This document shows positions 8,895-40,105 of a DNA stretch of 64,000 bases, piece after piece. The DNA comes from Sphingorhabdus sp. EL138 (GTDB lineage Bacteria > Pseudomonadota > Alphaproteobacteria > Sphingomonadales > Sphingomonadaceae): assembly GCF_945862485.1 (NCBI RefSeq), contig NZ_CAMAYF010000001.1:89401-153400 (forward strand). The letters are read 5' to 3'. A program made the translations under genes and the position numbers. Every line of letters starts with the position of its first letter. Position 1 is the first letter of the stretch. The notes under the pieces are model-generated. The model was not told the DNA's origin and ran no database searches. It worked only from the letters and a program-made list of their open reading frames with translations.

Positions 8895-8916
8895 GCCTTA
8901 ATCAAGCGATTAAGGC
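8895..8916. promoter_or_regulatory. Perfect palindromic operator candidate, acyl-CoA ligase operon
   Basis: Perfect inverted repeat: GCCTTAATC, four bases (AAGC), GATTAAGGC. It lies 12 to 33 bases upstream of the MBL-hydrolase start codon in the short gap after the DUF1013 gene. The same core with the same 4-base spacer occurs at 40086-40105 before the beta-oxidation operon. No run of T follows on either strand, so a terminator is unlikely. It is probably a binding site for a dimeric repressor. Confidence 0.6.
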
Positions 8917-8932
8917 AATCATCACGTTTCGA

Positions 8933-9634
8933 TTATTCGCCAGCTTTTTTGAATAAGGTGTCGGCGGTCAATTCTGCCTTGCCAACATTTTCGTCTTCGC
9001 CGTTCAATGCGGCTTCGGCCCGGCGCGCAGCTTCCGTACGTTCCGCGCGCAATTCTTCGATCAAAGCTTCACGATCGGTTCCAAGGCGCGCGTCGTTGGC
9101 AGCGGTATTGTCGATACCGGCTTTCTTTGCAGCGCGGTTTACTATCGCATCCAGTTCGCGCTGCGATGTCAGACCAAGGGTGACTGGGTCCTTCGCCTGA
9201 ATTTCAGCTATGTTCCAGTGGCTGCGCTCACGAATGGCAGCGATTGTATTGCGCGTCGTACCGATCAACTTGCAGATCGCGCCATCCGAAATTTCAGGAT
9301 GATTGCGCAGAAGCCAAGCGATGCCATCGGGCTTGTCCTGCCGCTTCGATACCGGCGTATACCGCGGGCCTTTTGTGCGGCGCACCTGATCCGGTCCCTT
9401 TGACATTTTGAGGACATAATCCTCATCCGCCTGACCCTTTTCAATTTCTTCCATTGCCAGTTCGCCAGCGTGCACAGGATCACGACCAGTATACTTCGAT
9501 CCAGTCATGTCATCAGCCATTGCCTGAACTTCAAGAATATGAATTCCGCAGAATTCGGCGATTTGCGAGAAGCTCAAACCCGTATTGTCGACCAACCAAG
9601 CGGCGGTCGCATGTGGCATCAAAGGGGTGGCCAT
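8933..9634 (-). CDS. DUF1013 family cell-cycle-type transcriptional regulator (TrcR-like)
   Basis: The 233-residue protein opens with PLMPHATAAWLVDNTGLSF and FCGIHILEVQAMAD, the hallmark of the DUF1013 family of Alphaproteobacteria, which I recall being named TrcR. Two helix-turn-helix-like units are visible, at about residues 12-40 (LSFSQIAEFCGIHILEVQ) and 110-135 (ISDGAICKLIGTTRNTIAAIR). A charged coiled tail follows (LIEELRAERTEAARRAEAAL). It likely binds DNA or RNA polymerase in the cytoplasm; targets are unknown. GGAG 8 bases before ATG 9634 sets the start. A terminator-like hairpin lies just upstream in its leader (9656-9677). Confidence 0.82.
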   Translation of the reverse strand: MATPLMPHATAAWLVDNTGLSFSQIAEFCGIHILEVQAMADDMTGSKYTGRDPVHAGELAMEEIEKGQADEDYVLKMSKGPDQVRRTKGPRYTPVSKRQDKPDGIAWLLRNHPEISDGAICKLIGTTRNTIAAIRERSHWNIAEIQAKDPVTLGLTSQRELDAIVNRAAKKAGIDNTAANDARLGTDREALIEELRAERTEAARRAEAALNGEDENVGKAELTADTLFKKAGE

Positions 9635-9655
9635 TTCATTTGCTCCAATAATAAG

Positions 9656-9677
9656 GGCCGCCCCTTACGGAGCGGCC
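9656..9677 (-). terminator. Terminator-like hairpin in the leader of the DUF1013 gene
   Basis: On the minus strand GGCCGCTCC pairs with GGGGCGGCC around a GTAA loop (nine pairs, one G-U) and is followed by CTTATTATT. It sits 22 bases before the DUF1013 start codon. About 20 bases further upstream a minus-strand frame ends in LSLADMANFA and TAA without any start codon. The hairpin is either the terminator of a lost gene or an attenuator of the regulator gene. Confidence 0.55.
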
Positions 9678-9796
9678 TGAATGTCTTGGCCAAGCATTAG
9701 GCGAAGTTTGCCATATCGGCAAGCGACAATGCGCGTTTGGACTTGCACGTACCCTACCACCCGTGCATTCCTCGGAGCAACCATCGGGGGGAAGAT

Positions 9797-10768
9797 ATGC
9801 TACGTTTGATCAAATGGCTCATTATTTTGTTACTTGCCGCCTTGGCCGCGCTGTTTTTCTGGGGCTACGCGCCTGACACAGAGGCAGCCCAGATGGAGAG
9901 AAAATATGGCAGCGCCGCTTCGCGCTTTGCCGAATTGGAGCCTGGTCTGCGCGTGCATTATCGTGATGAAGGCAAGTCCGATGGCCGTGTTCTCGTTCTT
10001 ATTCACGGTTCAAACGCCTCTTTGCATACTTGGGAACCATGGGTCAAAGCTCTCGGCAAGGACTATCGCGTCATTTCGCTTGATCTTCCCGGACATGGTC
10101 TGACTGGGCGCAACCCCACGGGCATCTACGACAATACATCATATGTTAGCGTTGTTGACCGTTTATTGACCAAGCTGAATGTTGATAATGCGGTCATCGG
10201 CGGCAATTCTATGGGCGGCGGCGTGTCGTGGTTATATGCATTGGAGCATCCCGAGAAGGTCGAAGCTTTGTTGTTGGTCGATGCCAGTGGGCAGCCTCAT
10301 GCCAAATCTGGCGAATTACCGCTTGGGTTCAAACTAATGCGCATGCCGGTTATAAAAGAAGCCGTCCGCTTCATTGCACCCCGCAGCATTTTTGAATCGA
10401 GCATTAAAACGTCAATGAGCGTTCAATCCAAAATCGACGACAAGCTCGTTGATCGATACTGGGAATTAAACCGCTATCCCGGCAACCGCGAGGCAACGAT
10501 GCAGCGCTTTTCAAGTCCCAAGAATATGAAACCTGGCACAAAAGAGCGGCTCTCGTCCATCAAGGCGCCAGTTTTTATCTTATGGGGCGCTGAAGATAAA
10601 TTAATCCCCGTCACCTCGGCCAAATGGTTCGCTGAAGCCTTGCCGCAAGCGAAGTTGATTATATATCCCAATGTCGGCCATATCCCGATGGAGGAAATAC
10701 CTGAAAAGAGCGCCAATGATGTCAAAACATGGTTGGATAGCTTGGCGGTAAAAACGCCTAAGGTATAA
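9797..10768 (+). CDS. Membrane-anchored alpha/beta hydrolase
   Basis: The 323-residue protein starts at ATG 9797 behind GGGGGGA. Residues 3-23 form one transmembrane helix (LIKWLIILLLAALAALFFWG), probably an uncleaved anchor with the enzyme outside. The oxyanion region is VLIHGSNAS, the nucleophile elbow GNSMGGG (serine near residue 139), the acid is in LWGAEDKLIP, and the catalytic histidine in NVGHIPMEE. It resembles broad esterases and haloalkane-dehalogenase-like hydrolases, but the substrate is not predictable. It is transcribed alone and divergently from the DUF1013 gene, and converges on the quinone oxidoreductase with a 6-base gap. Confidence 0.85.
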   Translation: MLRLIKWLIILLLAALAALFFWGYAPDTEAAQMERKYGSAASRFAELEPGLRVHYRDEGKSDGRVLVLIHGSNASLHTWEPWVKALGKDYRVISLDLPGHGLTGRNPTGIYDNTSYVSVVDRLLTKLNVDNAVIGGNSMGGGVSWLYALEHPEKVEALLLVDASGQPHAKSGELPLGFKLMRMPVIKEAVRFIAPRSIFESSIKTSMSVQSKIDDKLVDRYWELNRYPGNREATMQRFSSPKNMKPGTKERLSSIKAPVFILWGAEDKLIPVTSAKWFAEALPQAKLIIYPNVGHIPMEEIPEKSANDVKTWLDSLAVKTPKV

Positions 10769-10774
10769 ACGCGC

Positions 10775-11773
10775 CTAAACTTCCAACATGATTTTTCCGA
10801 CATGGGCGCCGGATTCCATATAAGCATGTGCTGTGGCAGCTTCGGCAAGCGGGAAAATCTTGTCCATTTCGGGACGCAACGTTCCTTCGCAAACTATTGG
10901 CCAGACTTTCGCTAATAATTGCTGCGCAAGCATTGCCTTAAATGCGGTGGTTCGCGGGCGCAGCGTTGAGCCAGTCAGCATCAGGCGACGTGACATGACA
11001 TACGCCATGTTAATTTCCGCTGTCATCCCGCCCTGCACCGCAATGGTCACATGCCGCCCGTCTTCCCGCAAACACTGCAAATTTCGCGACACATAACTAC
11101 CGGCGACCATATCAAGCACAAGATGGACGCCCTCGCCACCTGTGATCGCCTTCACACGTTCGACGAAATCGGAATTATTATAGTTGATAGCGTGATCAGC
11201 GCCAATTTTTTGAGCTGCTGCGCATTTGTGATCAGAACCACAGGTCACAATCACCGTCAGACCGAAAAGCTTGCCCAACTTGATTGCCATGGTTCCAATT
11301 CCGCTGGTCCCTCCGTGAATGAGTACGGTCTCGCTAGGGGCGGCGTAGCCCCGCTCAAACACGTTATGCCAAACTGTGAACAATGTCTCAGGCAAAGCAC
11401 CCGCTTCGGCCATGTCCATGCTTGCTGGCACCGGCAAGCACACATCCATGCGCGCAAGGCAATATTCGGCATATCCGCCGCCCGAGACCAAAGCGCAATA
11501 ACGCGCACCGATTATGGTCGGGTCGACATCATCACCCACCGCGACGACTGTTCCTGACACTTCAAGCCCGGGCAGATCGCTTGCCCCTGGAGGTGCGGGG
11601 TAAAGACCCTTGCGCTGGATAACGTCAGGCCGGTTTACGCCCGCATAAGCGACTTTCAAAAGAACTTCGCCCACACCCGGAACCGGTAGCGGCCGACGTG
11701 TCGGGACAAGCACCTCGGGTCCACCCGGCGTCGAAATCTCGATTACAGTCATTAATTCCGGTAGCTTATCCAT
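10775..11773 (-). CDS. NAD(P)H quinone oxidoreductase, PIG3-like zinc-free MDR
   Basis: The 332-residue medium-chain dehydrogenase family protein lacks the zinc-binding cysteines of alcohol dehydrogenases. Typical pieces are GVNRPDVIQRKGLYPAPPG near residue 48, LPGLEVSGTV, the nucleotide-binding loop HGGTSGIGTMAIKLG near 150, and the PIG3-type ending HAYMESGAHVGKIMLEV. It should reduce quinones with NADPH. Start ATG 11773 has AGGGA upstream. MTVIEIS at 11752 is an alternative and matches the usual family N-terminus. The longer frame to 12058 is antisense to the DUF1192 gene and is rejected. It is divergent from DUF1192, with 82 bases between. Confidence 0.88.
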   Translation of the reverse strand: MDKLPELMTVIEISTPGGPEVLVPTRRPLPVPGVGEVLLKVAYAGVNRPDVIQRKGLYPAPPGASDLPGLEVSGTVVAVGDDVDPTIIGARYCALVSGGGYAEYCLARMDVCLPVPASMDMAEAGALPETLFTVWHNVFERGYAAPSETVLIHGGTSGIGTMAIKLGKLFGLTVIVTCGSDHKCAAAQKIGADHAINYNNSDFVERVKAITGGEGVHLVLDMVAGSYVSRNLQCLREDGRHVTIAVQGGMTAEINMAYVMSRRLMLTGSTLRPRTTAFKAMLAQQLLAKVWPIVCEGTLRPEMDKIFPLAEAATAHAYMESGAHVGKIMLEV

Positions 11774-11855
11774 CTGTAGCCCATCCCTTTTGATTGACCG
11801 ACCTTTTAAGCAAGCTTCATATTGACAGCAACCGCCCATCGGTAAAATATGCGGT

Positions 11856-12053
11856 ATGGTTATTGACGAAAATCTGCCGCGCCGGCGCGACGATCCTGTG
11901 GCCAATCTTGTCATGCAGGATATTGACGCCCTATCTGTTGCGGAACTTGAGTTACGGATCGCTGCGCTAAAGGCAGAAATCACGCGCTGCGAAGGCAAAA
12001 TCACGTTTGCAAGCAAGCACAGAAGCGTTGCCGACGCGTTGTTCAAGAAGTGA
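11856..12053 (+). CDS. DUF1192 family small protein
   Basis: A 65-residue acidic protein. After MVIDENLPRRRDDP comes a short coiled coil, DALSVAELELRIAALKAEI near residues 29-47, ending ADALFKK. This is the layout of DUF1192, a small alphaproteobacterial family of unknown function. The longer minus-strand reading across this interval has poor composition, so this plus-strand gene is the real one. It is followed 130 bases later by clpA, which has its own promoter candidate. Confidence 0.75.
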   Translation: MVIDENLPRRRDDPVANLVMQDIDALSVAELELRIAALKAEITRCEGKITFASKHRSVADALFKK

Positions 12054-12111
12054 CACATAGCGAGCCAATGCTAAGAAAGCGGGAACCCAAACCGTTATCT
12101 CTCTCATCATG

Positions 12112-12140
12112 CTTGAAAGCACCGAAGGCAGCGCCGATAT
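12112..12140 (+). promoter_or_regulatory. Candidate promoter of clpA, housekeeping or heat-shock type
   Basis: CTTGAA at 12112-12117, 17 bases, then CGATAT at 12135-12140. This matches the alphaproteobacterial CTTGAC/CTATAT pattern, and the CTTGAA element also suits sigma-32. Predicted start of transcription is near 12147, leaving a leader of about 37 bases before the clpA start. Confidence 0.45.
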
Positions 12141-12183
12141 AGAGTAGAGACCGTGCAGCGACTCATTTTAGGGAGACCAAATT

Positions 12184-14526: not shown

Positions 14527-14529
14527 TCG

Positions 14530-14553
14530 GGCGGCCCTCATCGTAGGGCCGCC
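14530..14553 (+). terminator. Rho-independent terminator after clpA
   Basis: Perfect nine-base stem (GGCGGCCCT with AGGGCCGCC) around CATCGT, starting 4 bases after the clpA stop and followed by TTATCATT. Its position between convergent clpA and recF also allows use from the other side, though the T run is weaker there. Confidence 0.7.
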
Positions 14554-14556
14554 TTA

Positions 14557-15612
14557 TCATTGCCCAATTGGCAACAATTGGGCTGAAGCGCCAATACCAT
14601 TGAATAATTCGGGTTCTGTTCCAGTCATCCAGACTTGCGCGCCCGTATCGGCCAACAATCCAAACAACGCAGCGCGTCTTGAAGGATCGAGATGCGCAGC
14701 GACCTCATCCAGCAATAATATCGGCGGTGTATCACGCTGGACCGCTACAAGTGCCGCGTGCGCGAGAATGAGCGAGAGCAACAAAGCCTTCTGTTCTCCT
14801 GTGGAGCATTGCTCTGCAATCTGCCCTGAGGCGCTGTGTAATACTTCAAGATCAGCACGGTGAGGGCCTACCAACGTACGCCCGGCGGCCGCGTCCCGAT
14901 TACGTCCCTTACACCAGGCAGTCGCAAGATCGCCGTGAGCAGCTGCATCCTTATCAACTAATTTGATCTGCGGCGTGGCAAATGGCCCGGACATTGTCGT
15001 CAGCAATTGTGCACTCAACGCCTCTACGACCGAAGCACGGGCCGCTTGTATAAAGTTTCCGCTCTCGGCCATCTGCGCCTCAAGCGCATCTAACCAAAGG
15101 GGGTCGGCGGCAATACCGCCCGCCAAAAGCCTGTTGCGTTGTTGCATGGCCTTTTCATATCGGCTGCTGTGCCGCGCATGCCCTGGGTTTATCGCCAATA
15201 CCAAGCGATCCAGAAACCGCCGTCGCGCGGCTGCACCATCCGCAAACAATCGGTCCATCGCTGGAGTTAACCAGATGACCGACAGCCATTCGGCAAGGCT
15301 GTTTATTGTAGCATTGCTCTCGTTAACCCGTACCTTGCGTCGTTCAGGCTGCTCTGCGTTGACACCGGTGCCAATCACATTGCCGCCAGCGTGCGCAACG
15401 ATGGCAAAGCCGCCGCTGCCCTCGTTGCGTACCATGTCGGACATGGCCGCCCGGCGAAGACCTCTGCCTGGCACCAATAGCGACACTGCCTCCAGGATAT
15501 TCGTCTTACCGGCCCCGTTTGACCCGTGAAGTGCAATGAACTGCGTCCCTGGCCGGATGTCCAGCGCAGCATGATTGCGAAAATCATTCAGGATCAGTCG
15601 CGACAGCGTCAT
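14557..15612 (-). CDS. recF: DNA replication and repair protein RecF
   Basis: The 351-residue SMC-like ATPase. Walker A is GSNGAGKTN near residues 30-38, the signature is STGEQKALLLSLILAHA near 270, and Walker B is ILLLDEVAAHLD near 305. The N-terminus MTLSRLILNDFRNHAALDI is typical. RecF with RecO and RecR loads RecA at single-strand gaps. The gene stands alone here and is not in a dnaA-dnaN-recF-gyrB cluster. It converges with clpA, and upstream lies an AT-rich 226-base gap. Confidence 0.94.
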   Translation of the reverse strand: MTLSRLILNDFRNHAALDIRPGTQFIALHGSNGAGKTNILEAVSLLVPGRGLRRAAMSDMVRNEGSGGFAIVAHAGGNVIGTGVNAEQPERRKVRVNESNATINSLAEWLSVIWLTPAMDRLFADGAAARRRFLDRLVLAINPGHARHSSRYEKAMQQRNRLLAGGIAADPLWLDALEAQMAESGNFIQAARASVVEALSAQLLTTMSGPFATPQIKLVDKDAAAHGDLATAWCKGRNRDAAAGRTLVGPHRADLEVLHSASGQIAEQCSTGEQKALLLSLILAHAALVAVQRDTPPILLLDEVAAHLDPSRRAALFGLLADTGAQVWMTGTEPELFNGIGASAQLLPIGQ

Positions 15613-15677
15613 ATCATGCGTCTGCTATAGTATGGCCACTTTTGGTCAAGCGGCTATTGGCACTCCATCGCTCCCAA

Positions 15678-15700
15678 ATATTGGTATAATTTCCCAATAT
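15678..15700. repeat. Inverted repeat upstream of recF and the PspC pair
   Basis: Perfect seven-base arms ATATTGG and CCAATAT with nine bases between them, in the AT-rich divergent gap between recF and the 39-residue peptide gene. It could be an operator for either side. The rest of the gap (15613-15838) is AT-rich with TATAAT at 15739-15744 but no convincing -35 box. Confidence 0.35.
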
Positions 15701-15958: not shown

Positions 15959-15993
15959 TACAACCCAGCGTTTTGGAATTAGGGAGCAATTTA

Positions 15994-29353: not shown

Positions 29354-30388
29354 TTAGCTTAACGACCACGCGCGCTGTTCGGCCATGCCCATTGATATCA
29401 AAACGGGTTCATCCTGCTGCCGTGCTTGGAAGTCTGCCTTGCCAGAAAGGCCGCGCCAGCCCGAAGCTATCAGCGACTGAATGGTTGGCGCGCCCAAGGA
29501 TGTGCCGGGACCAAGCACAATGATCGTATCGGGTGCAAACTCTGCAGCCGCGACTTGGACCGCACGGGTAAAATCATAGCTATCGGTCAGTTGTGCACCG
29601 AGCGTGTAATCATAAATAGCGTCACGGCTGAATGCGCGCGGGGACCAAATTCGGCCCTGCCCATCAATCGCGGGAATTTCGCCAGACCCGAAATCGCCTA
29701 GCGGATTGGCTGTCCGCGCCATCGGAACAACATGGTTTAGCAAAGGGCTATGGAATGCGGCATGGTGCATAAGCTTTAACGGGAAACGGTCATCTTTAGG
29801 CAACCGTTCCATTAACCATTTGAGCCCAGCCTCGTCCGCAGCAAAGACTATCATTCCGCCAAGCCGGATGGAAATATGCACGTTTATTTCAGAAATTGTA
29901 TATGATTCATCCATTAAATTATTAACAAATAATAATTTATCCTGCTGCATATTCCAGTCATCATCCGCGACTGACCAGACAATTTGCCCACCGGCTCCAT
30001 GCTGGTGCATGATGCTGCCCATATTGTTGACGAGCCGTGCCCCGCCGGCAAGATCGACTATACCCGCACAAGCCAAGGCCAGATACCAACCCATAGAATT
30101 GCCGGTTACAGCCACAATATCATATTGTTCGCGGTCAATCGCAGCAAAGTCCGCCATTGCACAGGCATAGATTAACGCCGAGGCATTATCGCCCGTCATA
30201 TGGACTGACGGCGCGTATTTGTCTGCGGCATCAAGCTGCGAGACAGTTACCTGCCCCATCGCGGTCCGAGCGGCGTCCACTGTCGCAATAACGTCTTGGC
30301 GCGCCGCATGATGCGCCTTCAGATAGCCAAGTTCTGTAGCATTATAGGTCCCGCGCCCAGGGCAAATAACTAAAGCCGGTTTTTTCAT
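29354..30388 (-). CDS. ACP S-malonyltransferase-like acyltransferase
   Basis: The 344-residue protein has a FabD-like fold. The nucleophile elbow is VTGNSMGWYLALA near residue 100 (GNSMG rather than GHSxG), the arginine is in the NMGSIM neighbourhood only weakly, and a catalytic histidine occurs in HHAAFHSPLLNHVVP near 215. It starts PALVICPGRGTYNATE. The relation to malonyl-CoA:ACP transacylases is clear, but the replaced histidine beside the serine and its partner gene suggest a different acyl group. Its ATG overlaps the stop of the E1 gene, so it is made together with a 2-oxoacid dehydrogenase. Confidence 0.75.
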   Translation of the reverse strand: MKKPALVICPGRGTYNATELGYLKAHHAARQDVIATVDAARTAMGQVTVSQLDAADKYAPSVHMTGDNASALIYACAMADFAAIDREQYDIVAVTGNSMGWYLALACAGIVDLAGGARLVNNMGSIMHQHGAGGQIVWSVADDDWNMQQDKLLFVNNLMDESYTISEINVHISIRLGGMIVFAADEAGLKWLMERLPKDDRFPLKLMHHAAFHSPLLNHVVPMARTANPLGDFGSGEIPAIDGQGRIWSPRAFSRDAIYDYTLGAQLTDSYDFTRAVQVAAAEFAPDTIIVLGPGTSLGAPTIQSLIASGWRGLSGKADFQARQQDEPVLISMGMAEQRAWSLS

Positions 30389-32577
30389 GCCACCGCCGCC
30401 CGCGCCGCTTCGATGATAGATGCTTTGCTGGGCAACACCAATTCCGCTGCTGGTCCCAACGGAATGAAGCAATCCTCCGCTGTAATCCGGCTGACAGCAT
30501 CGCCGCGTCCAGATTCGGTCAAAATGGTCATCAACTTTTCGCTGAGGCTGCCCGACTTGCGGCATTCATCGACAATCAAAATCTTTCTGCAATCGGCCAC
30601 AACCGCTACAATCGCGTCAGCATTTAACGGGTGCAGCCAGCGTAGATCAATGATCCGCAGGTCAATCCCCCCCGCCTTTAATTCATCCGCCGCCTGTCGT
30701 GATAGAAAATAACCATTTCCGTATGTTATAATGGCAAGTTCAGTACCCTTACCAAATTGACCAAGCGCGCCAAGTGCGATCATTTTGTCCTGATCCGGCG
30801 CAACATAAGGCGCGGTCCAACCACCGTCATTCGGTTGTTGCAGGTCAGTCGTATGATAGAGCGCGATAGGCTCAATAAAGACCACAACTCGTCCGTCCTC
30901 ATGCGCCAGCCGGACGCATTCCCGCAACATTGCTGGCGCATCTGCGGCGCTGGAGGGGCAAGCAACGATGATACCGGGAATATCGGTCAGGACAGCCAAG
31001 CTATTGTCATTATGGAAATGCCCGCCAAACCCCTTTTGATATGGCAGGCCAGCAATGCGGATCACCATTGGGTTGCGATATTGCTGGTTCGAAAAGAACG
31101 ACAAGGTCGCAGCCTCTCCGCGGATCTGATCCTCAGCATTGTGCAGATAAGCCAAAAACTGGATTTCGGGAATTGGCACAAAGCCGTTATGTGCCATTCC
31201 AATGGCAAGGCCCAAAATCGTTTGTTCGTCCAGCAATGTGTCAAACACACGCGCGGCGCCGAATTTCTCCTGCAAACCCTGTGTCACGCCATAGACACCG
31301 CCCTTGCGTGCAACATCTTCGCCAAACACTGCGACGTGAGGATATTGCAGCATGATGTCTGCCAACGCGAAGTTAATGCTCTTGGCCAAGGTCGCTGGCT
31401 TGGCAAGGTTTCGCGCATCTTTGGTAATCAGCGCATCACGCTTCGCCGCATCGGGCAAGGGCTGCTGCGGTTGTGCTGATTTCTGCGGTTCGATTGAGGC
31501 CATGACTTGCGCCGCCGATACCAATCGCGGCTTAGCTAAGGCATCCTGTGCCACGCGGTCGACCCGGACACGCATATCTTCATAGCGTGCAAGGATCTCT
31601 GCGCCTGACATGCCCGCTTGTTCATGCAAAATACGCGCGCTGTGTAACAACGGATCTTCCGCTTCTGCAGCTTCAATCTGTGCAATAGAAGCGTAGCTTA
31701 GCTCAACATCTGCACCAGCATGCCCCATCAACCGGACTGTCTGCATGTGCAGAAACACTGGCTTACGCCGCATACGAGCATAGGTCACCGCTTCTGCGCA
31801 TCCGCGCAGCGCATCATTCATGTCCGCACCATCACAGCTTATATAATGCAACGCGGGCCTATGCGCGAAATTGGCCGCAATCCAGCCGCCTGGCGTGCGC
31901 ACGGAAATACCGATGCCATTATCCTCACACAAAAAGACAATAGGCATAGGCAAATGCTGATACGCGGCCCAACACGCGGCGTTGAACGCACCTTGCGACG
32001 TTGAATGGTTCGCGGACGCATCACCAAATGAACATATAATTACGGAGTCATGCGGCAACACCGCATCGGCCAGTTGCAACCGTTGTGCCATGCCAATTGA
32101 ATGCGCCGCGCCAACGGCCTTTGGTAGATGTGAGGCAATCGTACTGGTTTGCGGCGGAACAAAGGTGTGAGCGCAGCCCAATACCTTGTGCCGCCCGCCC
32201 GAAATCGGGTCATCCGCGGATGCAGCGAAGGACAAGGCCATGTCATACAAAGGCGTGAGGCCACCCGCTTGTTTCTTACGTTGGATCAGGAACGCAGCAT
32301 CACGGTAATGCAGGAATGCCATATCGGTCGAGCGTGTTGCGGCGGCCATGGCTGCTGTGCCCTCATGTCCCGAACTGCCAATGGAATAAAAAGTCTTGCC
32401 CTTGGAACGCCGCGCCCAAAAGTCGAGATGGCGGCTCATAATCTGACTATCGAACAGATCAATAAGCATGTGCGTCGGAACCGTTTCGGCAACGTTGCTG
32501 GAACGCGGATTTGGAAAGTCATGCGCAGCGACGCGGCGGGAAAATGCCTCGTCCAAGATCGTGGGGCGGTCAAACAT
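30385..32577 (-). CDS. 2-oxoacid dehydrogenase E1, fused alpha and beta subunits
   Basis: A 730-residue fusion. The alpha half (about 1-350) has YSIGSSGHEGTAAMAAATR, LHYRDAAFL, and the thiamine diphosphate motif GDASANHSTSQGAFNAA ending in CEDNG. The beta half (about 385-730) has FGEDVARKGGVYGVTQGLQEKFG, DTLLDEQTILGLAIGMA and the closing DLRWLHPLNADAIV. This is the branched-chain (2-oxoisovalerate) type rather than pyruvate dehydrogenase AceE. It decarboxylates a 2-oxo acid and passes the acyl group to a lipoyl E2. No E2 or E3 gene lies in the window; instead it is coupled to a FabD-like protein. No strong ribosome site precedes ATG 32577. Confidence 0.88.
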   Translation of the reverse strand: MFDRPTILDEAFSRRVAAHDFPNPRSSNVAETVPTHMLIDLFDSQIMSRHLDFWARRSKGKTFYSIGSSGHEGTAAMAAATRSTDMAFLHYRDAAFLIQRKKQAGGLTPLYDMALSFAASADDPISGGRHKVLGCAHTFVPPQTSTIASHLPKAVGAAHSIGMAQRLQLADAVLPHDSVIICSFGDASANHSTSQGAFNAACWAAYQHLPMPIVFLCEDNGIGISVRTPGGWIAANFAHRPALHYISCDGADMNDALRGCAEAVTYARMRRKPVFLHMQTVRLMGHAGADVELSYASIAQIEAAEAEDPLLHSARILHEQAGMSGAEILARYEDMRVRVDRVAQDALAKPRLVSAAQVMASIEPQKSAQPQQPLPDAAKRDALITKDARNLAKPATLAKSINFALADIMLQYPHVAVFGEDVARKGGVYGVTQGLQEKFGAARVFDTLLDEQTILGLAIGMAHNGFVPIPEIQFLAYLHNAEDQIRGEAATLSFFSNQQYRNPMVIRIAGLPYQKGFGGHFHNDNSLAVLTDIPGIIVACPSSAADAPAMLRECVRLAHEDGRVVVFIEPIALYHTTDLQQPNDGGWTAPYVAPDQDKMIALGALGQFGKGTELAIITYGNGYFLSRQAADELKAGGIDLRIIDLRWLHPLNADAIVAVVADCRKILIVDECRKSGSLSEKLMTILTESGRGDAVSRITAEDCFIPLGPAAELVLPSKASIIEAARAAVA

Positions 32578-32629
32578 AATATGCGATGATTAATGCCAAA
32601 AGGCACAAAAGCCACAGTAAAATCATATT

Positions 32630-32647
32630 TTCAATCGTGCGATTAAA
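32630..32647. promoter_or_regulatory. Degenerate copy of the CTTAATC/GATTAAG operator
   Basis: TTCAATC, four bases (GTGC), GATTAAA: the inner AATC and GATT and the spacer match the perfect sites at 8895 and 40086. It stands 53 bases before the E1 gene and in the divergent gap to the TonB receptor. The match is weaker, so it is offered as a candidate only. Confidence 0.35.
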
Positions 32648-32697
32648 TTGCTGGATTTGTCAAATTTCGGCGATAGGATGGATCGTTCATGGAGTTT

Positions 32698-32723
32698 CTT
32701 CCCGGATTTTCCCAACCGGGAAG
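32698..32723. promoter_or_regulatory. Perfect inverted repeat before the TonB receptor gene
   Basis: Arms CTTCCCGG and CCGGGAAG separated by ten bases, about 70 bases before the receptor start. It is GC-rich and not followed by T residues, so it reads as an operator or a leader hairpin rather than a terminator. Confidence 0.45.
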
Positions 32724-32795
32724 CGTTTAGAGTGCCGCCAACCATATATGAGCAGCAAATGCCAATGGGTTGACGGTAAAATGGAGGAGAGAGAA

Positions 32796-35405
32796 ATGCG
32801 TCGATTTAATCGTGTTATTACCGCTGCTTTGTGCAGCACCGTCTGTAGTGTTATGTTGATTCCTGCAGCTTTTGCCCAAACAGCCCAAGCCGAAGACGAT
32901 AGTGGTGATGAACCCATCATCGTAACCGCGACGTTGCGCGCGATGGATGTGCAAGACATTCCGCTGGCTGTGACCGCCGTCGCGCCAGAGGCGTTGGAGC
33001 GTCAGGGCATCAACGACATTAAAAACTTGGCATCTATTTCGCCCAGCTTCAACATTCAGTCGTCGCAGACTGAAACGCAAGGTACCTCGATCAAAATTCG
33101 TGGCGTCGGCACGACGGGCAACAATACCGGCCTTGAAAGCTCGGTTGGCGTATTCATTGACGGCGTCTATCAGTCGCGCCCCGGCGTTGCACTCGGCGAC
33201 CTCGTTGATCTTGAGCGCCTTGAAATCTTGCGTGGCCCTCAAGGCACGCTGTTCGGTCGCAACACGTCAGCAGGTGCGTTAAATGTTACGACAAAGCGCC
33301 CTAGCCTTTCGACGACCGAGGGCTTTGCGAATGCAAGCTATGGCAATTACAATTTCATGAATGTGCAAGCAGGTGTCAGCCTTCCGGTAGCACAAGATGT
33401 CGCAGGCGTTCGTTTGTCCGGCACATGGCGCAAGCGTGATGGCTATCTAAAAACCCCCGCTGGCGTCGAAAGCAATGATCGTGACCGCTATATGCTGCGC
33501 GGACAACTTTACATCGAACCCAATGCTGATGTCAGCATCCGTTTGCTTGCGGATTACGCCAAGACTGATGAACAATGCTGCGAAGCCGTCATTGTTCGCG
33601 AAACCGAACTTGCGCCTTTCTCCGCTTTCCATGGTTTGGCCAGCGATGGCGTAGACCAGTCCGGAATGAGCGCGCTGAACAATCTATCGATCAACGGTGG
33701 ACCCTATCTGAACGGCTCCAAGCAATGGGGTACTTCGGCCGAACTGAAATGGGACTTGGGTGCTGCAAAGCTGACCTCGGTAACCGCATATCGTAAGTTC
33801 GATTCGAGCTCGACGACGGTCGGTGGTTTCACCGCCAACGACACCTACACAGTGGGCAATGGCGCACCGACATCACGCACTGGCATTTTGCCATCGGGTG
33901 ACCATATCAAGACCTTTACACAAGAGTTGCGCCTGCAAGGCACCGCTCTCAATGATGGTCTCGACTGGCTGATTGGTGGTTTCTACTCGAGCGAGAAAAT
34001 CCGCGCTGACCAGACGATGACCTTAAATGCCGATTTCCAGCGGACAGGTAGTGCTTTCAACTTTGGCAATGCGGCAGGGGTCAACCCGTTGTTCGCACTG
34101 ACCGCGCTCGGCAATGCCGGCGTTCCAGTCAATGCCAATGGTAACTACGCCGAAAACCGGTTTAACCAAGATGCAAGCAGTTGGTCGGTATTCACGCATA
34201 ATGTTCTTAATTTCACCGACAAACTGAGTTTGACGGTAGGTGCCCGTTACGTAAATGAAACCAAGGACGCATCGTTCAACCAGCTTGCTGGAACGACTGG
34301 TGCAGGCGCCAGTGCGTGCCAAGCCAGCGTGAATGGTGTTTTAACCGGCGCCGTACCTGCCGCACTTCGTGCGGGTATGATTGGTATCAACTGCTTCCCG
34401 TTTGCAACGTCGGTTGCCCTTACTGCCCCGGCAGCAGTCGGCGGTGGCCTTGCGAGCGCCAAGCTACCCTTGCCGCGCGTGTGGTCGCAAGAGTTCAAGG
34501 ACGATGAGATCACCTATACGGCTCAACTTGGTTACAAGGCGAACGAAGATTTGTTGTTCTACGCTGGTTACAGCCATGGATTCAAATCGGGTGGCTTCAA
34601 CCTCGATCCACAGTCCGCAACATTGCAGAACTCGGCAGCCATTCTTGCCGGTTTGGCAACACCGGGCGGTCCGGTGATTGTTGCGCCGGTTTATGCTGAT
34701 CCAAGCTTCAAATCGGAGAAGGTCAACCAAATAGAAGTTGGCGTTAAGGCAACATTATTTGGCGGCATCAAAGCCAATCTGGCTTTGTTCGATATGAAAA
34801 TGAGCGACTTCCAGGTGCTTGAATTCACTGGCGTTCAGTTCCTGACCTTCAACGTCAATTCGGCGCGGTCAACAGGTGCTGAACTGGAGTTGTTTGGTAA
34901 GCTGAGCGACCATATTTCGGCAAGTGCATCGGGAACATATGCCAATGCCCGCTATCCGGGAAACTGCGCGGATGGCGTAGCAGCCGCAGCCCTCGCATCC
35001 ACATTGCGACTTTGCGGTCAAGATCTGACGAACGCGCCTAGATTTGCGGGCGTAATCGGTATGACGTACGATGGTCCGTTGAATGACTCGGGTTGGAGTT
35101 TGCTGGTCAACGGAAATGTGAATTATTCCGATAGCCGCACGACCCGGACAATCGACACCGATACGAACGGTCTACCCGTGCCATTGGCTCGGCAGGAAAA
35201 CTACTACAAGATCAACGCACGCATCGGCCTGACCACGCCAGACGATCGTTATACCTTTGAGCTTTGGGGTACGAACTTGAACAACGAAATCACGCGCGGT
35301 ATCACCGCCAACACGCCACTGCGTGGCGGTGCTGGTACGCGGTCGTTAATTGGTTTCGTAGAAGAGCCTCGCATGTACGGCCTGACCGTCCGCGCCAAGT
35401 TCTAA
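32796..35405 (+). CDS. TonB-dependent outer membrane receptor
   Basis: The 869-residue receptor starts MRRFNRV at ATG 32796 behind GGAGGAGAGAG. A signal peptide of about 28 residues ends IPAAFA. The TonB box is EPIIVTATLRA near 40, then the plug with IKIRGVGTTGNN, SVGVFIDGVYQSR and RGPQGTLFGRNTSAGALNVTTKRP. A beta barrel fills the rest and ends in an aromatic-position phenylalanine (LTVRAKF). It belongs to the large sphingomonad iron/carbohydrate/steroid-type receptors; ligand unknown. An unusual cysteine pair occurs in DEQCCEAV near 255. It is divergent from the E1 operon and closed by a strong terminator. Confidence 0.93.
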   Translation: MRRFNRVITAALCSTVCSVMLIPAAFAQTAQAEDDSGDEPIIVTATLRAMDVQDIPLAVTAVAPEALERQGINDIKNLASISPSFNIQSSQTETQGTSIKIRGVGTTGNNTGLESSVGVFIDGVYQSRPGVALGDLVDLERLEILRGPQGTLFGRNTSAGALNVTTKRPSLSTTEGFANASYGNYNFMNVQAGVSLPVAQDVAGVRLSGTWRKRDGYLKTPAGVESNDRDRYMLRGQLYIEPNADVSIRLLADYAKTDEQCCEAVIVRETELAPFSAFHGLASDGVDQSGMSALNNLSINGGPYLNGSKQWGTSAELKWDLGAAKLTSVTAYRKFDSSSTTVGGFTANDTYTVGNGAPTSRTGILPSGDHIKTFTQELRLQGTALNDGLDWLIGGFYSSEKIRADQTMTLNADFQRTGSAFNFGNAAGVNPLFALTALGNAGVPVNANGNYAENRFNQDASSWSVFTHNVLNFTDKLSLTVGARYVNETKDASFNQLAGTTGAGASACQASVNGVLTGAVPAALRAGMIGINCFPFATSVALTAPAAVGGGLASAKLPLPRVWSQEFKDDEITYTAQLGYKANEDLLFYAGYSHGFKSGGFNLDPQSATLQNSAAILAGLATPGGPVIVAPVYADPSFKSEKVNQIEVGVKATLFGGIKANLALFDMKMSDFQVLEFTGVQFLTFNVNSARSTGAELELFGKLSDHISASASGTYANARYPGNCADGVAAAALASTLRLCGQDLTNAPRFAGVIGMTYDGPLNDSGWSLLVNGNVNYSDSRTTRTIDTDTNGLPVPLARQENYYKINARIGLTTPDDRYTFELWGTNLNNEITRGITANTPLRGGAGTRSLIGFVEEPRMYGLTVRAKF

Positions 35406-35421
35406 AACCAAGATTGCAAAC

Positions 35422-35457
35422 AAAAAGGGCGGCCTCCGCGTGGAGGTCGCCCTTTTT
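35422..35457. terminator. Bidirectional terminator between the TonB receptor and the beta-oxidation operon
   Basis: AAAAAGGGCGGCCTCC pairs with GGAGGTCGCCCTTTTT (one G-U type mismatch) around four bases. The outer A and T runs give U tracts in both directions, fitting the convergent genes on either side. Confidence 0.88.
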
Positions 35458-35475
35458 GTATCTGTCGTTCCGGCT

Positions 35476-37671
35476 TTATGCGGCGGCTTTATACAAAGTC
35501 TCCCCCTTCTCCGCCATTTCGCGGAAACTTTTGGGCGGTGCGAAACGGTGGCCAAAACGTTGCGCCAAATTATCCGCAGTGCGGACGAAGTTTTCCAGTC
35601 CTACTGTGTCGATATAGCTCATTGGACCGCCGGTATAAGGGGCAAAGCCCCAACCAAAGATCGCGCCCAAATCGGCGCTTTGCGGATCCTTAACAACATC
35701 TTCTTCAAAGCACTGCGCCGTTGCAATCAGTTGGATATACAACAAACGCTGCTTCACCTCTTCGACCGACGGCTGTTCCTCGGCGAGCGGATAATGCTCG
35801 GCCATGCCCTGCCACAGGCTCAGGCGCTCGCCCTTGGCATCATAATCGTAGAAACCCGAACCAAAACGGCGGCCCTTGCGGCCAAGTTTGACCACCATCA
35901 ACTCCATAAAATCTTCGGTGCCGCTTGGCTGATACGCGTCACCCAATTCCTTCTTGGTCGACTGCATGACATCATAGCCCAGTTGCAACGTGGTTTCGTC
36001 CAGCAAAGCTAGCGGGCCGATCGGCATACCAAGCGCCTTGGCCGCATTTTCGATCAAAGCGGGCTTCACGCCCTCCGTAACCAGCTTCATCGCCTCACCC
36101 ATATAAGGCGGGAACACGCGGTTGGTGAAAAATCCTCGCACATCCTTAACGACAATCGGCGTTTTCTTGATTTTGGCGTTGTAATCAAACGCCGCCGCCA
36201 AGGCACGATCACCCGTCAATGCGCCGGGGATAATCTCAAGCAACGGCATCTTTTCAACCGGTGAAAAGAAATGCAGTCCAACGAACAATTCCGGCCGCGA
36301 CGAATTTTTGGCGAGGCCAGTGATCGGCAATGTCGACGTGTTGGACGCGAATACGACATCAGGACCGATGACGGCTTCGGCTTTCTTGATAACATCCGCC
36401 TTCACATCGGGGCGTTCAAAAACGGCTTCGATGATGAGGTCAACGTCTTTCAAATCGTCATAATTATCGGTCGGCGTAATACGCGCCATGAAGGCGTCAC
36501 CTGCTTCTTTGGTCATCTTGCCACGGCTAACGGCCTTGTCGATGATCTTACGGCTGTAATCGACGGCCTTGTTGGCGTCTTCCAAGCTACGATCGAGGAC
36601 AACCACATCCATGCCGCCCTTGACGGTGACATGTGTGATGCCCGAACCCATCAGTCCACCACCTAAAACGCCAACCTTCTTTATCTCCACTGGAGGCACT
36701 CCTGCGGGACGTCCCGCGCCCTTCTCGGCGGCCTGCTTGTTGATGAACAAGGTGCGGATCATGTTTTTGGCTTGGCTACCCGAAAGCAGTTTGGTGAAAT
36801 ATTTCGATTCCACACGCAGCGCGGTGTCGAATGGCAGGATCGAGCCTTCATACAAGCAGGACAAAATCGCCTTTATGGCATCGAAATTGCCTTTGCTTTC
36901 CTTGTGCGCCATGGCGTTAAGGCCAACAAATAACTGCACGGCGCGCGGGTCCATTGCCCCTGCCCCACCCGGGAATTTGAAATCCTTCTTATCCCAAGGT
37001 GCTGTGACCTTCGGATTGGCTTTCACCCATGCCTTTGCATTGGCAATCAGGTCGGCCGCTGGCACGACTTCGTGGACTAGGCCTTGTGCCTTTGCCGTCG
37101 CCGGATCGAGCGACTTGCCTTGAATGATCATCATCGCTGCGTTTTGCAGACCGATAAGGCGCGGCGTCCGCTGTGTGCCGCCGCCGCCGGGCAGCAAGCC
37201 CACCATGACTTCGGGCATGCCAAGCTGAATTTTCGGATGGTCGACAACGATGCGGTAATGGCACGCCAAAGCCAGCTCAAGTCCGCCGCCCAAGGCAAGT
37301 CCATTCAGCGCGCAAGCCACTGGCTTAGCCGACGCTTTGCCGGAACTCAGGTCCTTGGCCGACTGACCGCCCGTTTCCATTTTGCGTAACAATGCGTTCA
37401 ACGCAAATGCTTGGTCAAAAGCTTCTTTTGTGCTGTTAGCCTTCGCGCCGCCTAGCATCGTAAGGTCAGCACCGGCCAAGAAACCGGATTTTTTGCCCGA
37501 GGTAATGACCGCGCCTTTAACGGCGTCATTGGTCGTGAAATCTTCAACCCATTTGGCAAATTCTTCAATCAATGCGCCATTCCATACATTCATAGAGGCT
37601 TCGGGTAGATCGATGGTCAAAAGTGCAATGCCATCGGCGTCGATATCGACGGAGAAAGTTTTATATGTCAT
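35476..37671 (-). CDS. Bifunctional enoyl-CoA hydratase / 3-hydroxyacyl-CoA dehydrogenase (FadB/FadJ-like)
   Basis: The 731-residue multifunctional beta-oxidation protein. The N-terminal crotonase half has GFLAGADLTMLGG near 65, ALNGLALGGGLELALACHYR and MPEVMVGLLPGGGGTQR, with the two catalytic acidic positions. The NAD-binding half has VGVLGGGLMGSGI near 325, SNTSTLPITGLA and LHFFSPVEKMPLLEI with the catalytic histidine. It hydrates enoyl-CoA and oxidises the hydroxyacyl-CoA. ATG 37671 with GGGA upstream is preferred over the in-frame TTG 37689. It is last in the operon, 14 bases after the thiolase. Confidence 0.92.
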   Translation of the reverse strand: MTYKTFSVDIDADGIALLTIDLPEASMNVWNGALIEEFAKWVEDFTTNDAVKGAVITSGKKSGFLAGADLTMLGGAKANSTKEAFDQAFALNALLRKMETGGQSAKDLSSGKASAKPVACALNGLALGGGLELALACHYRIVVDHPKIQLGMPEVMVGLLPGGGGTQRTPRLIGLQNAAMMIIQGKSLDPATAKAQGLVHEVVPAADLIANAKAWVKANPKVTAPWDKKDFKFPGGAGAMDPRAVQLFVGLNAMAHKESKGNFDAIKAILSCLYEGSILPFDTALRVESKYFTKLLSGSQAKNMIRTLFINKQAAEKGAGRPAGVPPVEIKKVGVLGGGLMGSGITHVTVKGGMDVVVLDRSLEDANKAVDYSRKIIDKAVSRGKMTKEAGDAFMARITPTDNYDDLKDVDLIIEAVFERPDVKADVIKKAEAVIGPDVVFASNTSTLPITGLAKNSSRPELFVGLHFFSPVEKMPLLEIIPGALTGDRALAAAFDYNAKIKKTPIVVKDVRGFFTNRVFPPYMGEAMKLVTEGVKPALIENAAKALGMPIGPLALLDETTLQLGYDVMQSTKKELGDAYQPSGTEDFMELMVVKLGRKGRRFGSGFYDYDAKGERLSLWQGMAEHYPLAEEQPSVEEVKQRLLYIQLIATAQCFEEDVVKDPQSADLGAIFGWGFAPYTGGPMSYIDTVGLENFVRTADNLAQRFGHRFAPPKSFREMAEKGETLYKAAA

Positions 37672-37685
37672 GTTTTCTGTCCCGA

Positions 37686-38900
37686 TCAATTCACGCGTTC
37701 AATGATGGTTGCGGTGCCCATGCCCGCGCCGATGCACAGGGTGGTAAGCGCAGTCGACTTGCCGGACCGCTCCAGCTCATCCAATACCGTCCCAAGGATC
37801 ATCGCACCCGTTGCACCTAAAGGATGGCCCATGGCGATTGCGCCACCGTTTACATTGATATCTGAATGGTCGATCTTCATCGCTTCCATGAAACGCAGGA
37901 CAACCGAAGCGAAGGCTTCGTTCAATTCCCACACGTCAATGTCGCCTTTGTCCATGCCTGCACGCGCCAGCGCCTTCTGCGCAGCAAATTCGGGGCCTGT
38001 CAGCATGATTGCAGGCTCAGAACCTATGGACGCCATCGAAACGATCCGCGCCCGCGCCTTTAGGCCATATTTTTCGCCTGCTTCCTTCGTCCCAATCAGC
38101 ACGGCAGCAGAACCATCGACAATACCAGAGCTATTGCCAGCATGATGGACATGATTGATCTTTTCGACGTCGGGATAACGCATGATAGCAATGTCATCAA
38201 AGCCAGGCATCATCGTGCCCATCATTTGGAATGCAGGGGCCAACGCACCCAAGGACTGCATATCGGTTTGCGGACGCATCAACTCGTCATGGTCAAGCAC
38301 AACCTCACCGATAACGTCTTTGATGGGCAGGATGGAGCGCGCAAAGCGCTTCTCAGCCCATGCACGGCCAGCGCGCTTCTGGCTTTCAACGGCATATGCG
38401 TCGACATCGTCGCGGCTGTAACCATATCTGGTGGCAATAAGATCGGCAGAAATGCCTTGCGGAATGAAGTAATTGGCAATCGCTGAACGCGGGTCGATTG
38501 GCCATGCGCCGCCGTCTGAACCCATGGGCACGCGGCTCATCGATTCAATACCGCCGCCAACCGCAAGATCGCACTCGCCGGATTTCACCTTAGCCGCAGC
38601 GATGTTCGACGCTTCAAGGCCAGAACCGCAGAAACGGTTTACCTGAATCCCCGAAGTTGTGTGCGGATAGCCCGCAGCGAGAACTGCAGTGCGTGTAATG
38701 ACGGCGCCTTGTTCCCCAACGGGCGAAACGCAACCAAAGGCCACATCCTCAATTTCTTCCCCCGACAGGCCATTGCGGTCGCGGATCGCGGCCAAGACCT
38801 GCGCTGCCAGATCGATCGGCGTAATTTCATGCAGTGCACCATCAGGGCGCCCCTTGCCGCGGGGGCTACGCACCGCATCATATATGTAAGCTTCAGTCAT
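37686..38900 (-). CDS. fadA: Acetyl-CoA C-acyltransferase (thiolase)
   Basis: The 404-residue thiolase has the acylated cysteine in NRFCGSGLEASNIAAAK near residue 92, the histidine motif NGGAIAMGHPLGATGA near 350, and the second cysteine in TLCIGAGMGTATIIE near 390. It cleaves 3-ketoacyl-CoA with CoA. AGGA lies before ATG 38900. Position between the CaiB-family gene and the hydratase/dehydrogenase argues for a degradative thiolase; a biosynthetic acetoacetyl-CoA thiolase is possible but less likely. Confidence 0.9.
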   Translation of the reverse strand: MTEAYIYDAVRSPRGKGRPDGALHEITPIDLAAQVLAAIRDRNGLSGEEIEDVAFGCVSPVGEQGAVITRTAVLAAGYPHTTSGIQVNRFCGSGLEASNIAAAKVKSGECDLAVGGGIESMSRVPMGSDGGAWPIDPRSAIANYFIPQGISADLIATRYGYSRDDVDAYAVESQKRAGRAWAEKRFARSILPIKDVIGEVVLDHDELMRPQTDMQSLGALAPAFQMMGTMMPGFDDIAIMRYPDVEKINHVHHAGNSSGIVDGSAAVLIGTKEAGEKYGLKARARIVSMASIGSEPAIMLTGPEFAAQKALARAGMDKGDIDVWELNEAFASVVLRFMEAMKIDHSDINVNGGAIAMGHPLGATGAMILGTVLDELERSGKSTALTTLCIGAGMGTATIIERVN

Positions 38901-38909
38901 CGTCTTTTC

Positions 38910-40061
38910 CTAATTTGTGACCACGGCGCCCGCCGCGATCAGTTGGGAGATTTCATGTTCACCGAGGCCAGCCTCGGTCAATATATCGGCATAATCGCCG
39001 CCTTTTGTTGCAACATCGAAATGGGTAGCCAATGGCTGCGTTGCAAGTCTTGGCGCAACTTGCGGATGCACCCAACGGCCATCCTGCACAAAGGCCTGCC
39101 GCGCGGCGTTTGCGGGATGGGATGGGGCTTCGACATAATCCAGCACGGGCGTAACACATGCGTCGGTTCCGGCAAAAATCGCTTCCCATTCGTCGCGCGT
39201 TTTGGTCGCGAACACATCTTCTAGTAATTCGTGCTGCATCGCCCAAGCCGTGCGGTCATGCTGACCGCCATATAAATCCTCGTCTACGGGCAAACGCTCC
39301 ATCATCGCCGCGAAAAACTGCGGTTCAATGCAGCCAACGGCCATAAACTTACCGTCAGACGTCAAATAACAACGGTAGAATGGCATCGCCCCGTCGAGCA
39401 AATTTGCCTCACGCTGCGTGCGCCATTGGCCAAGCCCGGCCATGCCATGGACAAAACTCATCAGGCTGTTGGTGCCATCGACAATCGCCGCATCCACTAT
39501 ATTGCCTTTACCGGTCCTTGCACGTTCAACCAAAGCCGCAAGAATACCATTGACTAGAAACATCGACCCGCCGCCAAAATCGCCAATCATGTTGAGCGAC
39601 GGGACGGGCGGCTGCCCTTCCTTGCCGATCGCGTTCAAAACACCAGTCATACCAATATAATTAATGTCATGCCCGGCCATTTGGTTCCACGGACCCGTTT
39701 GGCCCCAGCCAGTCATCCGGCCATAGATAAGACCTGGATTAACCGCCTGACAAACATCGGGACCAACCCCCATCCGTTCCGTCACACCCGGCCGCAGTCC
39801 CTCAATCAAGACATCAGCCGATGCAACCAACTTCAACAATGCGGTAACCGCTTCAGGTTTCTTCAAATCAAGGATTATTGATTTTTTACCACGTGCATCA
39901 ATCCCCTTGGGAACGATCGAACCGCCGGGCCTGTCGATAACAATAACATCCGCACCCATGTCCGCCAGCAACTGGCCAGCATAAGGTCCAGGCCCAATAC
40001 CAGCAAGTTCGACAATCTTTATGCCGCTTAGCGGACCGGATTTGGGGGGAGAATCGGTCAT
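38910..40061 (-). CDS. CaiB/BaiF CoA-transferase family protein, alpha-methylacyl-CoA racemase-like
   Basis: The 383-residue protein has GIKIVELAGIGPGPYAGQLLADMGADVI near residue 14, a family hallmark, then GLRPGVTERMGVGPD and MAGHDINYIGMTG with the aspartate used by the racemase. GRMTGWGQTGPW and DAAIVDGTNSL follow. The HDINY motif favours alpha-methylacyl-CoA racemase over formyl-CoA transferase; it would prepare branched acyl-CoAs for oxidation. It opens the operon with the thiolase 9 bases downstream. A perfect palindrome sits 25 bases before ATG 40061. Confidence 0.87.
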   Translation of the reverse strand: MTDSPPKSGPLSGIKIVELAGIGPGPYAGQLLADMGADVIVIDRPGGSIVPKGIDARGKKSIILDLKKPEAVTALLKLVASADVLIEGLRPGVTERMGVGPDVCQAVNPGLIYGRMTGWGQTGPWNQMAGHDINYIGMTGVLNAIGKEGQPPVPSLNMIGDFGGGSMFLVNGILAALVERARTGKGNIVDAAIVDGTNSLMSFVHGMAGLGQWRTQREANLLDGAMPFYRCYLTSDGKFMAVGCIEPQFFAAMMERLPVDEDLYGGQHDRTAWAMQHELLEDVFATKTRDEWEAIFAGTDACVTPVLDYVEAPSHPANAARQAFVQDGRWVHPQVAPRLATQPLATHFDVATKGGDYADILTEAGLGEHEISQLIAAGAVVTN

Positions 40062-40085
40062 GAATTGGTTTCCGTTACTATAGGC

Positions 40086-40105
40086 GCTTAATCGCCTGAT
40101 TAAGC
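40086..40105. promoter_or_regulatory. Perfect palindromic operator candidate, beta-oxidation operon
   Basis: GCTTAATC, four bases (GCCT), GATTAAGC, perfect over eight-base arms, 25 bases before the racemase-family start codon. Same core and spacer as the site at 8895-8916. The position fits a repressor site near the start of transcription. Confidence 0.6.

Follow-up and report, generated by a model that had tools for sequence, protein, structure and literature searches.

A shared palindrome before acyl-CoA catabolism genes of Sphingorhabdus sp. EL138, probable operator of a TetR-family protein of sphingomonads

The window analysed here, a stretch of 64,000 nucleotides from the genome of Sphingorhabdus sp. 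EL138 (contig NZ_CAMAYF010000001.1, positions 89,401 to 153,400), contains four putative operator sites built on one palindromic pattern, two of which stand in front of fatty-acid operons. These two had been claimed in an earlier note on this DNA and are indeed present in the places described, with perfect symmetry; sites 3 and 4 had been missed. Putative operator site 1 (8894..8917, no strand assigned; position weight matrix (PWM) score 21.8) is a 24-mer palindrome, TGCCTTAATC-N4-GATTAAGGCA, whose arms extend by one pair on each side the form first noted (GCCTTAATC-AAGC-GATTAAGGC, 8895-8916). It precedes operon 1, which is encoded on the minus strand and comprises: an MBL-fold hydrolase as first gene (7783..8883; PF00753); an AMP-forming acyl-CoA ligase (6093..7823; PF00501/PF13193), for which NCBIfam gives, below cut-off throughout, long-chain fatty acid-CoA ligases and PimA as best matches; a DNA polymerase IV, dinB (4982..6130; NF002677, 461.5 bits, cut-off 256), whose open reading frame (ORF) overlaps that of the ligase; and a TetR-family regulator, hereafter TetR A (4272..4952; TetR_C_27, a relative of PDB 2ras), rejected below as reader of the motif. 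Site 1 lies in the gap between the MBL start (8883) and the end of a gene for a TrcR-like cell-cycle regulator (8933-9634; PF06242), and since only 49 bp separate the two, the operon 1 promoter probably reaches into the 3' end of the TrcR-like gene. Putative operator site 2 (40086..40105, no strand assigned; GCTTAATC-GCCT-GATTAAGC; PWM score 20.8) precedes operon 2, also on the minus strand, which encodes a CoA-transferase of family III (CaiB-type; 38910..40061; PF02515), an acetyl-CoA acetyltransferase (thiolase) (37686..38900; NF006090, 685.8 bits, cut-off 514) and a FadJ-like enoyl-CoA hydratase/3-hydroxyacyl-CoA dehydrogenase (35476..37689; PF00378, PF02737, PF00725), the latter reaching 596.1 bits against NF008363, under the cut-off of 869. 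The attribution of both operons to fatty-acid metabolism and the order MBL, acyl-CoA ligase, dinB stand as first described; the supposed racemase is the CoA-transferase, and the TetR gene behind dinB had been left out of operon 1. Both palindromes are located just upstream of the first start codon, as had been claimed, with centres about 22 bp from ATG 8883 and about 34 bp from ATG 40061.

The two other putative operators (likewise without strand) each carry one mismatch and score 22.2. Site 3 (4114..4129; TTAATC-ATGT-GCTTAA) is positioned behind TetR A and in front of the genes for a DUF1330 protein (3678..4121; PF07045) and a nitronate monooxygenase family protein (2735..3688; PF03060), both on the minus strand; the true start of the DUF1330 gene is probably further in, because the listed ATG at 4121 falls within the site. 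Site 4 (32631..32646; TCAATC-GTGC-GATTAA) lies between two divergent genes, coding for a 2-oxoacid dehydrogenase E1-type protein downstream of it (30385..32577, minus strand; E1_dh and transketolase-type domains, PF00676/PF02779/PF02780) and for a TonB-dependent receptor (ORF as listed 32586..35405, plus strand), the true start of which is probably the ATG at 32796, because site 4 falls inside the nominal 5' end of the listed ORF. A weight matrix was built from 122 distinct 32-mers after removal of those of the own genome, so that only other genomes served for training; in a scan of the window with it, the four sites scored 20.8-22.2, the fifth-best match 8.8 and the best match in the reversed window 1.0. 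According to this matrix, the motif consists of T(0.80)-TTAA-T/C-C-G/A and its mirror image, with two central bases free. An 18-mer form gave seven window matches with at most three mismatches (1.3 expected), a number reached in 0 of 100 shuffles. In G137, a genome of the same genus, the 24-mer of site 1 is identical, in gene-strand reading, before the orthologue (L162); site 3 has a counterpart just before DUF1330 (L162:7784 / L305:84, PWM score 20.4); and site 4 has one in the orthologous place, with a weaker score of 9.8 (L304:8515). A promoter scan found no -35/-10-like match for operon 1, and a single, not useful one within coding sequence (39901-39874) in the operon 2 region.

The genome of EL138 (G000; 2,183,488 bases, 55 contigs, 96.6% complete) contains TTAATC-N4-GATTAA with at most one mismatch in 14 places, seven of them exact, against none for the reversed pattern. 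Eleven of the 14 places precede a gene start, two lie inside long frames and one is ambiguous. The exact sites precede three operons (MBL, CoA-transferase/thiolase/FadJ and a thiolase operon) and the genes for a nitroreductase, a carboxyltransferase (divergent from that for a rhodanese protein), a pyrroloquinoline quinone (PQQ)-type dehydrogenase and an acyl-CoA dehydrogenase, and four of the seven one-mismatch places precede genes for a further acyl-CoA dehydrogenase, a MoxR-like AAA ATPase, the DUF1330 protein and the E1/TonB pair. The idea of a wider acyl-CoA regulon is supported by these sites, several of which stand before acyl-CoA catabolism genes across the genome. Short palindromes are common in AT-rich promoters, and two unrelated ones could in principle look alike; the genome-wide count of 14 against 0, the four high window scores against none in reverse, and the conservation described below make such a coincidence, which the note too had thought unlikely, negligibly probable.

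Relatives were searched in two samples, one of 149 genomes of the family and one of 296 genomes of the order. In the family sample, the exact site occurs in 17 genomes, 15 of which (hereafter the motif genomes) have at least two. Positions were analysed on 73 exact sites from nine genera of the family, made up of 66 listed sites of 14 other genomes and the seven of EL138; left out were four exact sites of G068 and the single sites of G040 and G004, neither of which has the regulator B introduced below. Automatic gene calls place 63 of the 73 sites at -20..130 bp from a start; for AT-matched control positions the figure is 1056 of 3753. Inside a called frame are nine of the sites and 2158 of the 3753 controls, and one site may count in both classes. 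The motif is thus not as frequent in coding sequence as in promoters. The ten sites that fail the automatic count all lie before a likely start when inspected by eye, the weakest case being L130, which has no ATG. For 58 of the 63 sites that were measured, the start codon follows 18-86 bp downstream.

The enrichment before lipid genes foreseen in the note was also found in the relatives. Indeed, when seven acyl-CoA enzymes of EL138 were used as queries, they matched 42 of the 84 site-adjacent proteins and 6 of 62 control frames taken elsewhere in these loci, a contrast somewhat flattered by the automatic choice of the control frames, some of which are probably not genes and keep the control low. 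The 84 proteins include divergent neighbours that are possibly not targets. The Pfam families beside the sites, counted from the first 25 families, include acyl-CoA dehydrogenase (17), thiolase (10), AMP-binding (7), AAA (7), carboxyltransferase (4), enoyl-CoA hydratase (4), APH (4) and CoA-transferase III (2). The control frames gave two acyl-CoA dehydrogenases, one thiolase, one AMP-binding protein and two hydratases (first 25 of 73 families), and one of them is the AAA gene of EL138, itself a one-mismatch target.

TetR A was the first candidate for the reader of the palindrome and was dropped, its distribution not matching that of the motif. Its gene lies in a site-bearing operon in both G000 and G137, and a strong orthologue is present in 12 of the 15 motif genomes. 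However, strong orthologues (at least 130 bits) occur in 36 of the 149 family genomes, 24 of which have fewer than two sites; TetR A is missing from three motif genomes (G026, G059 and G131, best match no better than 1.4e-8); and across 30 TetR A loci, with about 1.5 kb of flank, the ligase gene is adjacent in G000 and G137 only, and G068 has dinB only. It is highly improbable that TetR A, encoded in operon 1, is the repressor that reads the palindrome.

The search with TetR A also turned up a second TetR gene, B, beside a motif cluster on contig C7, outside the window (G000:C7:46920-47555). B is a protein of 212 aa and an orthologue of PDB 2qtq. Its gene is the last of a thiolase-short-chain dehydrogenase/reductase (SDR)-enoyl-CoA hydratase-tetR series, whose members share one strand and are preceded by an exact site. 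A regulator with the site at its own promoter, as envisaged in the note, is therefore found in B and not in the TetR protein of the window. All five Pfam matches of B are TetR domains, among them the C-terminal domain PF14514 (TetR_C_9; 169.5 bits, cut-off 25.3), and its recognition segment, GLNSALVKYYFGNK, is identical in all 17 B orthologues of the family sample. PDB 2qtq/2rha is a solved structure of a B orthologue: 2qtq matches B with an E value of 3.5e-109, has an identical recognition segment, was deposited as 'Transcriptional regulator, TetR family' and presumably comes from Novosphingobium aromaticivorans. Among the literature matches listed, 2QTQ is mentioned once, in a crystallography methods paper.

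The distribution of B follows that of the motif. In the family sample, the 15 genomes with at least two exact sites are exactly those with the 15 best B matches (264-462 bits), and the exact motif is present in 15 of the 17 genomes with B; nine genera carry both B and at least two exact sites. In seven B operons that lack an exact site (in G089, G026, G132, G131, G059, G060 and G111), a copy with one or two mismatches stands about 3 kb ahead of B; five of these copies carry C instead of T in the fifth position of a half-site, and the motif was accordingly widened to TTAAYC-N4-GRTTAA. This comparison leaves out the sequence L101. The wider form, TTAAYCGNNCGRTTAA, occurs in the same 15 family genomes and once in another, G061. 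In the order sample, it was found in 42 of 296 genomes, against 12 for the reversed control. The B profile reaches at least 300 bits in 36 genomes of this sample, all of which have TTAAYCGNNCGRTTAA (seven with a single site) and none of which is among the 12 control genomes, whereas only 6 of the 260 genomes without B have it, with one site each and all in other families. Among the 227 genomes new to this second sample, the motif is present in all 21 that have B, which belong to three genera, and in 6 of the 206 that lack it. Weaker B homologues (160-215 bits) occur in 13 genomes, none of which has the motif.

The site is also conserved in front of the B operon itself. The best 80 of 273 B loci were named, some being records of genomes already searched; 66 of them hold at least 3.4 kb of upstream flank and were counted, and the other 14 were not. 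In 61 of the 66 loci (45 of the 61 sequences being distinct), the interval 2.6-3.4 kb upstream of B, the expected place of the thiolase promoter, holds a site that departs from the widened motif by no more than one base, with no match for the reversed control; the site is free of mismatches in 42 of the 66, and in L215 and L216 a site lies nearer to B. The comparison of distributions covered TetR A and B, and co-occurrence alone cannot separate co-inherited genes, so that a third regulator, unlinked to the sites and inherited together with B, could read the motif. Such a regulator is nevertheless quite improbable, because a site before the regulator's own operon is the usual sign of autoregulation and the recognition segment of B and the motif have been kept together in 15 of 17 B orthologues, the exceptions belonging to the single genus g69.

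The prediction that the site would be conserved before the orthologues of the window operons held for the thiolase gene and less well for the MBL gene. All seven thiolase orthologues with at least 78% identity (the own one included) have a site with at most one mismatch within 1.4 kb upstream, and in four of the seven the distance fits a CoA-transferase gene in front. A related thiolase (46-50% identity; best match per genome, plus the own-genome copy) has the site in 5 of 7 genomes with B against 0 of 13 without B. These 13 B-less genomes (L283, L286, L287, L289-L298) possess the thiolase paralogue without such a site.

Several observations weigh against B as the reader of the motif or limit how far it can be carried. 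For the MBL gene, nine orthologues were found among 30 genomes searched, and only four of them have the site in front (G000, G137, G087 and, with one mismatch, G089). No site (at most one mismatch of the T form in the case of G000) accompanies the thiolase paralogue in G111 or in G000 itself (C4:146939), three of the 66 B loci (L227, L242 and L256) have no site, and in G061 a single wider-form site is present although the genome has no close B. B matches 16 and 17, in G138 (262 bits) and G069 (246 bits), which belong to one genus (g69), show 57-62% identity and lie outside the order sample, come from genomes without an exact site, and the 18 kb around B contain only three-mismatch matches there. 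The N-terminal helix-turn-helix domain PF00440 gives B 23.8 bits, just under the cut-off of 24.0, for this one sequence. Lastly, the co-occurrence of B and motif partly reflects shared ancestry, and the P values, which ignore relatedness, are nominal.

In genus g69 (L172:10098, L173:7226), the recognition segment of B is unchanged and the best matches to the site near B are three mismatches off; one such match (TTAAGC..GGCTAA and TTAGCC..GGTTAA) is placed about 0.9 kb ahead of B in G138 and G069 alike. This pattern could correspond to decay of the operator or to a shifted motif.

A second palindrome, TTGACGC-NN-GCGTCAA (40131..40146, no strand assigned), is separated from site 2 by 43 bp, a spacing also found in G137 (L304:16010). 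A similar one, TTGACGY-NN-RCGTCAA, is present in G000 at 23 bp from the site of the acyl-CoA dehydrogenase gene (L029:255-270), and the G137 counterpart of that site (L165:3031) has TTGACGC-NN-GCGTCAA at the same 23-bp spacing. When up to one mismatch was allowed, a genome search found the palindrome in 31 places and the control in 9, a background in view of which only exact copies were followed. The second palindrome is possibly the site of another, LiuR-like regulator; it appears to resemble the site of LiuR, a MerR protein.

Dimers of TetR proteins bind to palindromes, where they usually act by blocking the polymerase. Taken together, the data indicate that TTTAAyC-N4-GrTTAAA is very probably the operator of a homodimer of B, a probable repressor of acyl-CoA catabolism genes, its own included, that would be released by an acyl-CoA or a fatty acid. 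From the sites, their positions and conservation, the homology-based functions of the adjoining genes, and the co-distribution and linkage of B, we infer the binding of B to the site, its action as a repressor and not as an activator, and its response to such a ligand. A dimer of B would occupy the palindrome, in most cases some 20-80 bp ahead of a start codon, and would probably block transcription of genes for acyl-CoA dehydrogenases, thiolases, ligases, FadJ, a CoA-transferase and an acyl-CoA carboxylase subunit; being encoded in a site-bearing operon, it would also repress its own thiolase-SDR-hydratase-tetR series. Release would probably be triggered by a fatty acyl-CoA or a fatty acid, a ligand proposed because the targets are acyl-CoA genes. 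It cannot be transferred from the fatty-acid regulators of NCBIfam, because B is far below the cut-off even of the closest of them, which is a further point to set against this part of the model.

The site-adjacent genes also code for CoA-transferases, carboxyltransferases, an E1 2-oxoacid dehydrogenase, a nitroreductase, P450s and a PQQ dehydrogenase, and the second palindrome, apparently LiuR-like, adjoins site 2. B could therefore activate through the site, or act mainly in branched-chain or steroid acyl-CoA catabolism and not in fatty-acid beta-oxidation. We regard either variant as rather unlikely, given that the spacing to the start codon suits repression, since a dimer bound there would block the polymerase, and that the commonest neighbours of the sites are acyl-CoA dehydrogenases, thiolases and ligases. 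Repression of acyl-CoA catabolism genes by B thus remains the preferred explanation.

B was compared with known regulators of fatty-acid metabolism. Bacillus FadR, a TetR protein that binds acyl-CoA (PDB 3whb), is weakly similar to B (NF053878, 37.3 bits, cut-off 200); it belongs, like Mycobacterium FasR, to another phylum. FasR, also weakly similar (21.9 bits, cut-off 330), is described in PMC7382501 as a TetR regulator of fatty-acid metabolism that binds acyl-CoA. PsrA of Gammaproteobacteria and FadP of Betaproteobacteria resemble B in being TetR-family proteins, and both control fatty-acid degradation regulons according to PMC5343134, which calls FadP unique to Betaproteobacteria; the PsrA model NF053516 (Vibrio-type) gives B 25.5 bits, for a cut-off of 300. 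Escherichia coli FadR, a regulator of fatty-acid degradation (PMC5343134), belongs to the GntR family, whereas B matches TetR models. The portion of PMC5343134 consulted lists FadR, PsrA and FadP for Proteobacteria, and its sole mention of Sphingomonadales concerns a histidine transporter. Within the sphingomonads, EdcR of Caenibius tardaugens (former Novosphingobium) is a TetR repressor of estradiol operons with palindromic operators overlapping -10 boxes, and differs from B in its TetR_C_11 domain, which is not among the five Pfam matches of B, and in its operator, TnnCnnTACnAnTnGTAnnGnnA (PMC8700777). For a TetR regulator of bile-salt genes, other palindromes have been proposed (PMC12882949). 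Judging from the curated models for PsrA, Bacillus FadR and FasR, and from domain and operator for EdcR, B is distinct from all four. Among the matches listed in the open-access literature, there was no description of the operator or of B, nor of a regulator of general acyl-CoA catabolism for sphingomonads; subscription papers were mostly outside the scope of this search and RegPrecise was not searched.

Two features of the adjoining genes are reported for their own sake. (i) In the window, dinB (4982-6130) sits between the acyl-CoA ligase and TetR genes inside an acyl-CoA operon; the order ligase-dinB-TetR A is kept in G137, and dinB and TetR A alone are found together in G068. (ii) A MoxR-like AAA ATPase adjoins exact sites in seven other genomes (L110, L113, L117, L123, L133, L164 and L171; 7 of the 84 proteins), and the one of EL138 (G000:C2:13841, L021) has a one-mismatch site and is followed by a CoxE-type VWA-like protein, as seen by eye.

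Sphingomonads are studied for the breakdown of pollutants, lignin fragments and steroids, and the pathways involved feed acyl-CoA steps. Tentatively, and with the balance still somewhat on the side of doubt, B may be a previously undescribed master repressor of acyl-CoA catabolism in many sphingomonads, taking the place of FadR, PsrA and FadP, with a regulon that would reach beyond beta-oxidation to the MoxR-type AAA ATPase and its CoxE-like partner, TonB-dependent uptake, the PQQ dehydrogenase and, in this genus, DNA polymerase IV, and with a second, LiuR-like co-regulator at some promoters. If true, the present analysis would provide a regulator, an operator and a first regulon for acyl-CoA catabolism in these bacteria, as well as a function for an orphan crystal structure, and it would show that the regulatory task handled in other Proteobacteria by FadR, PsrA or FadP has been solved once more by a non-orthologous protein.

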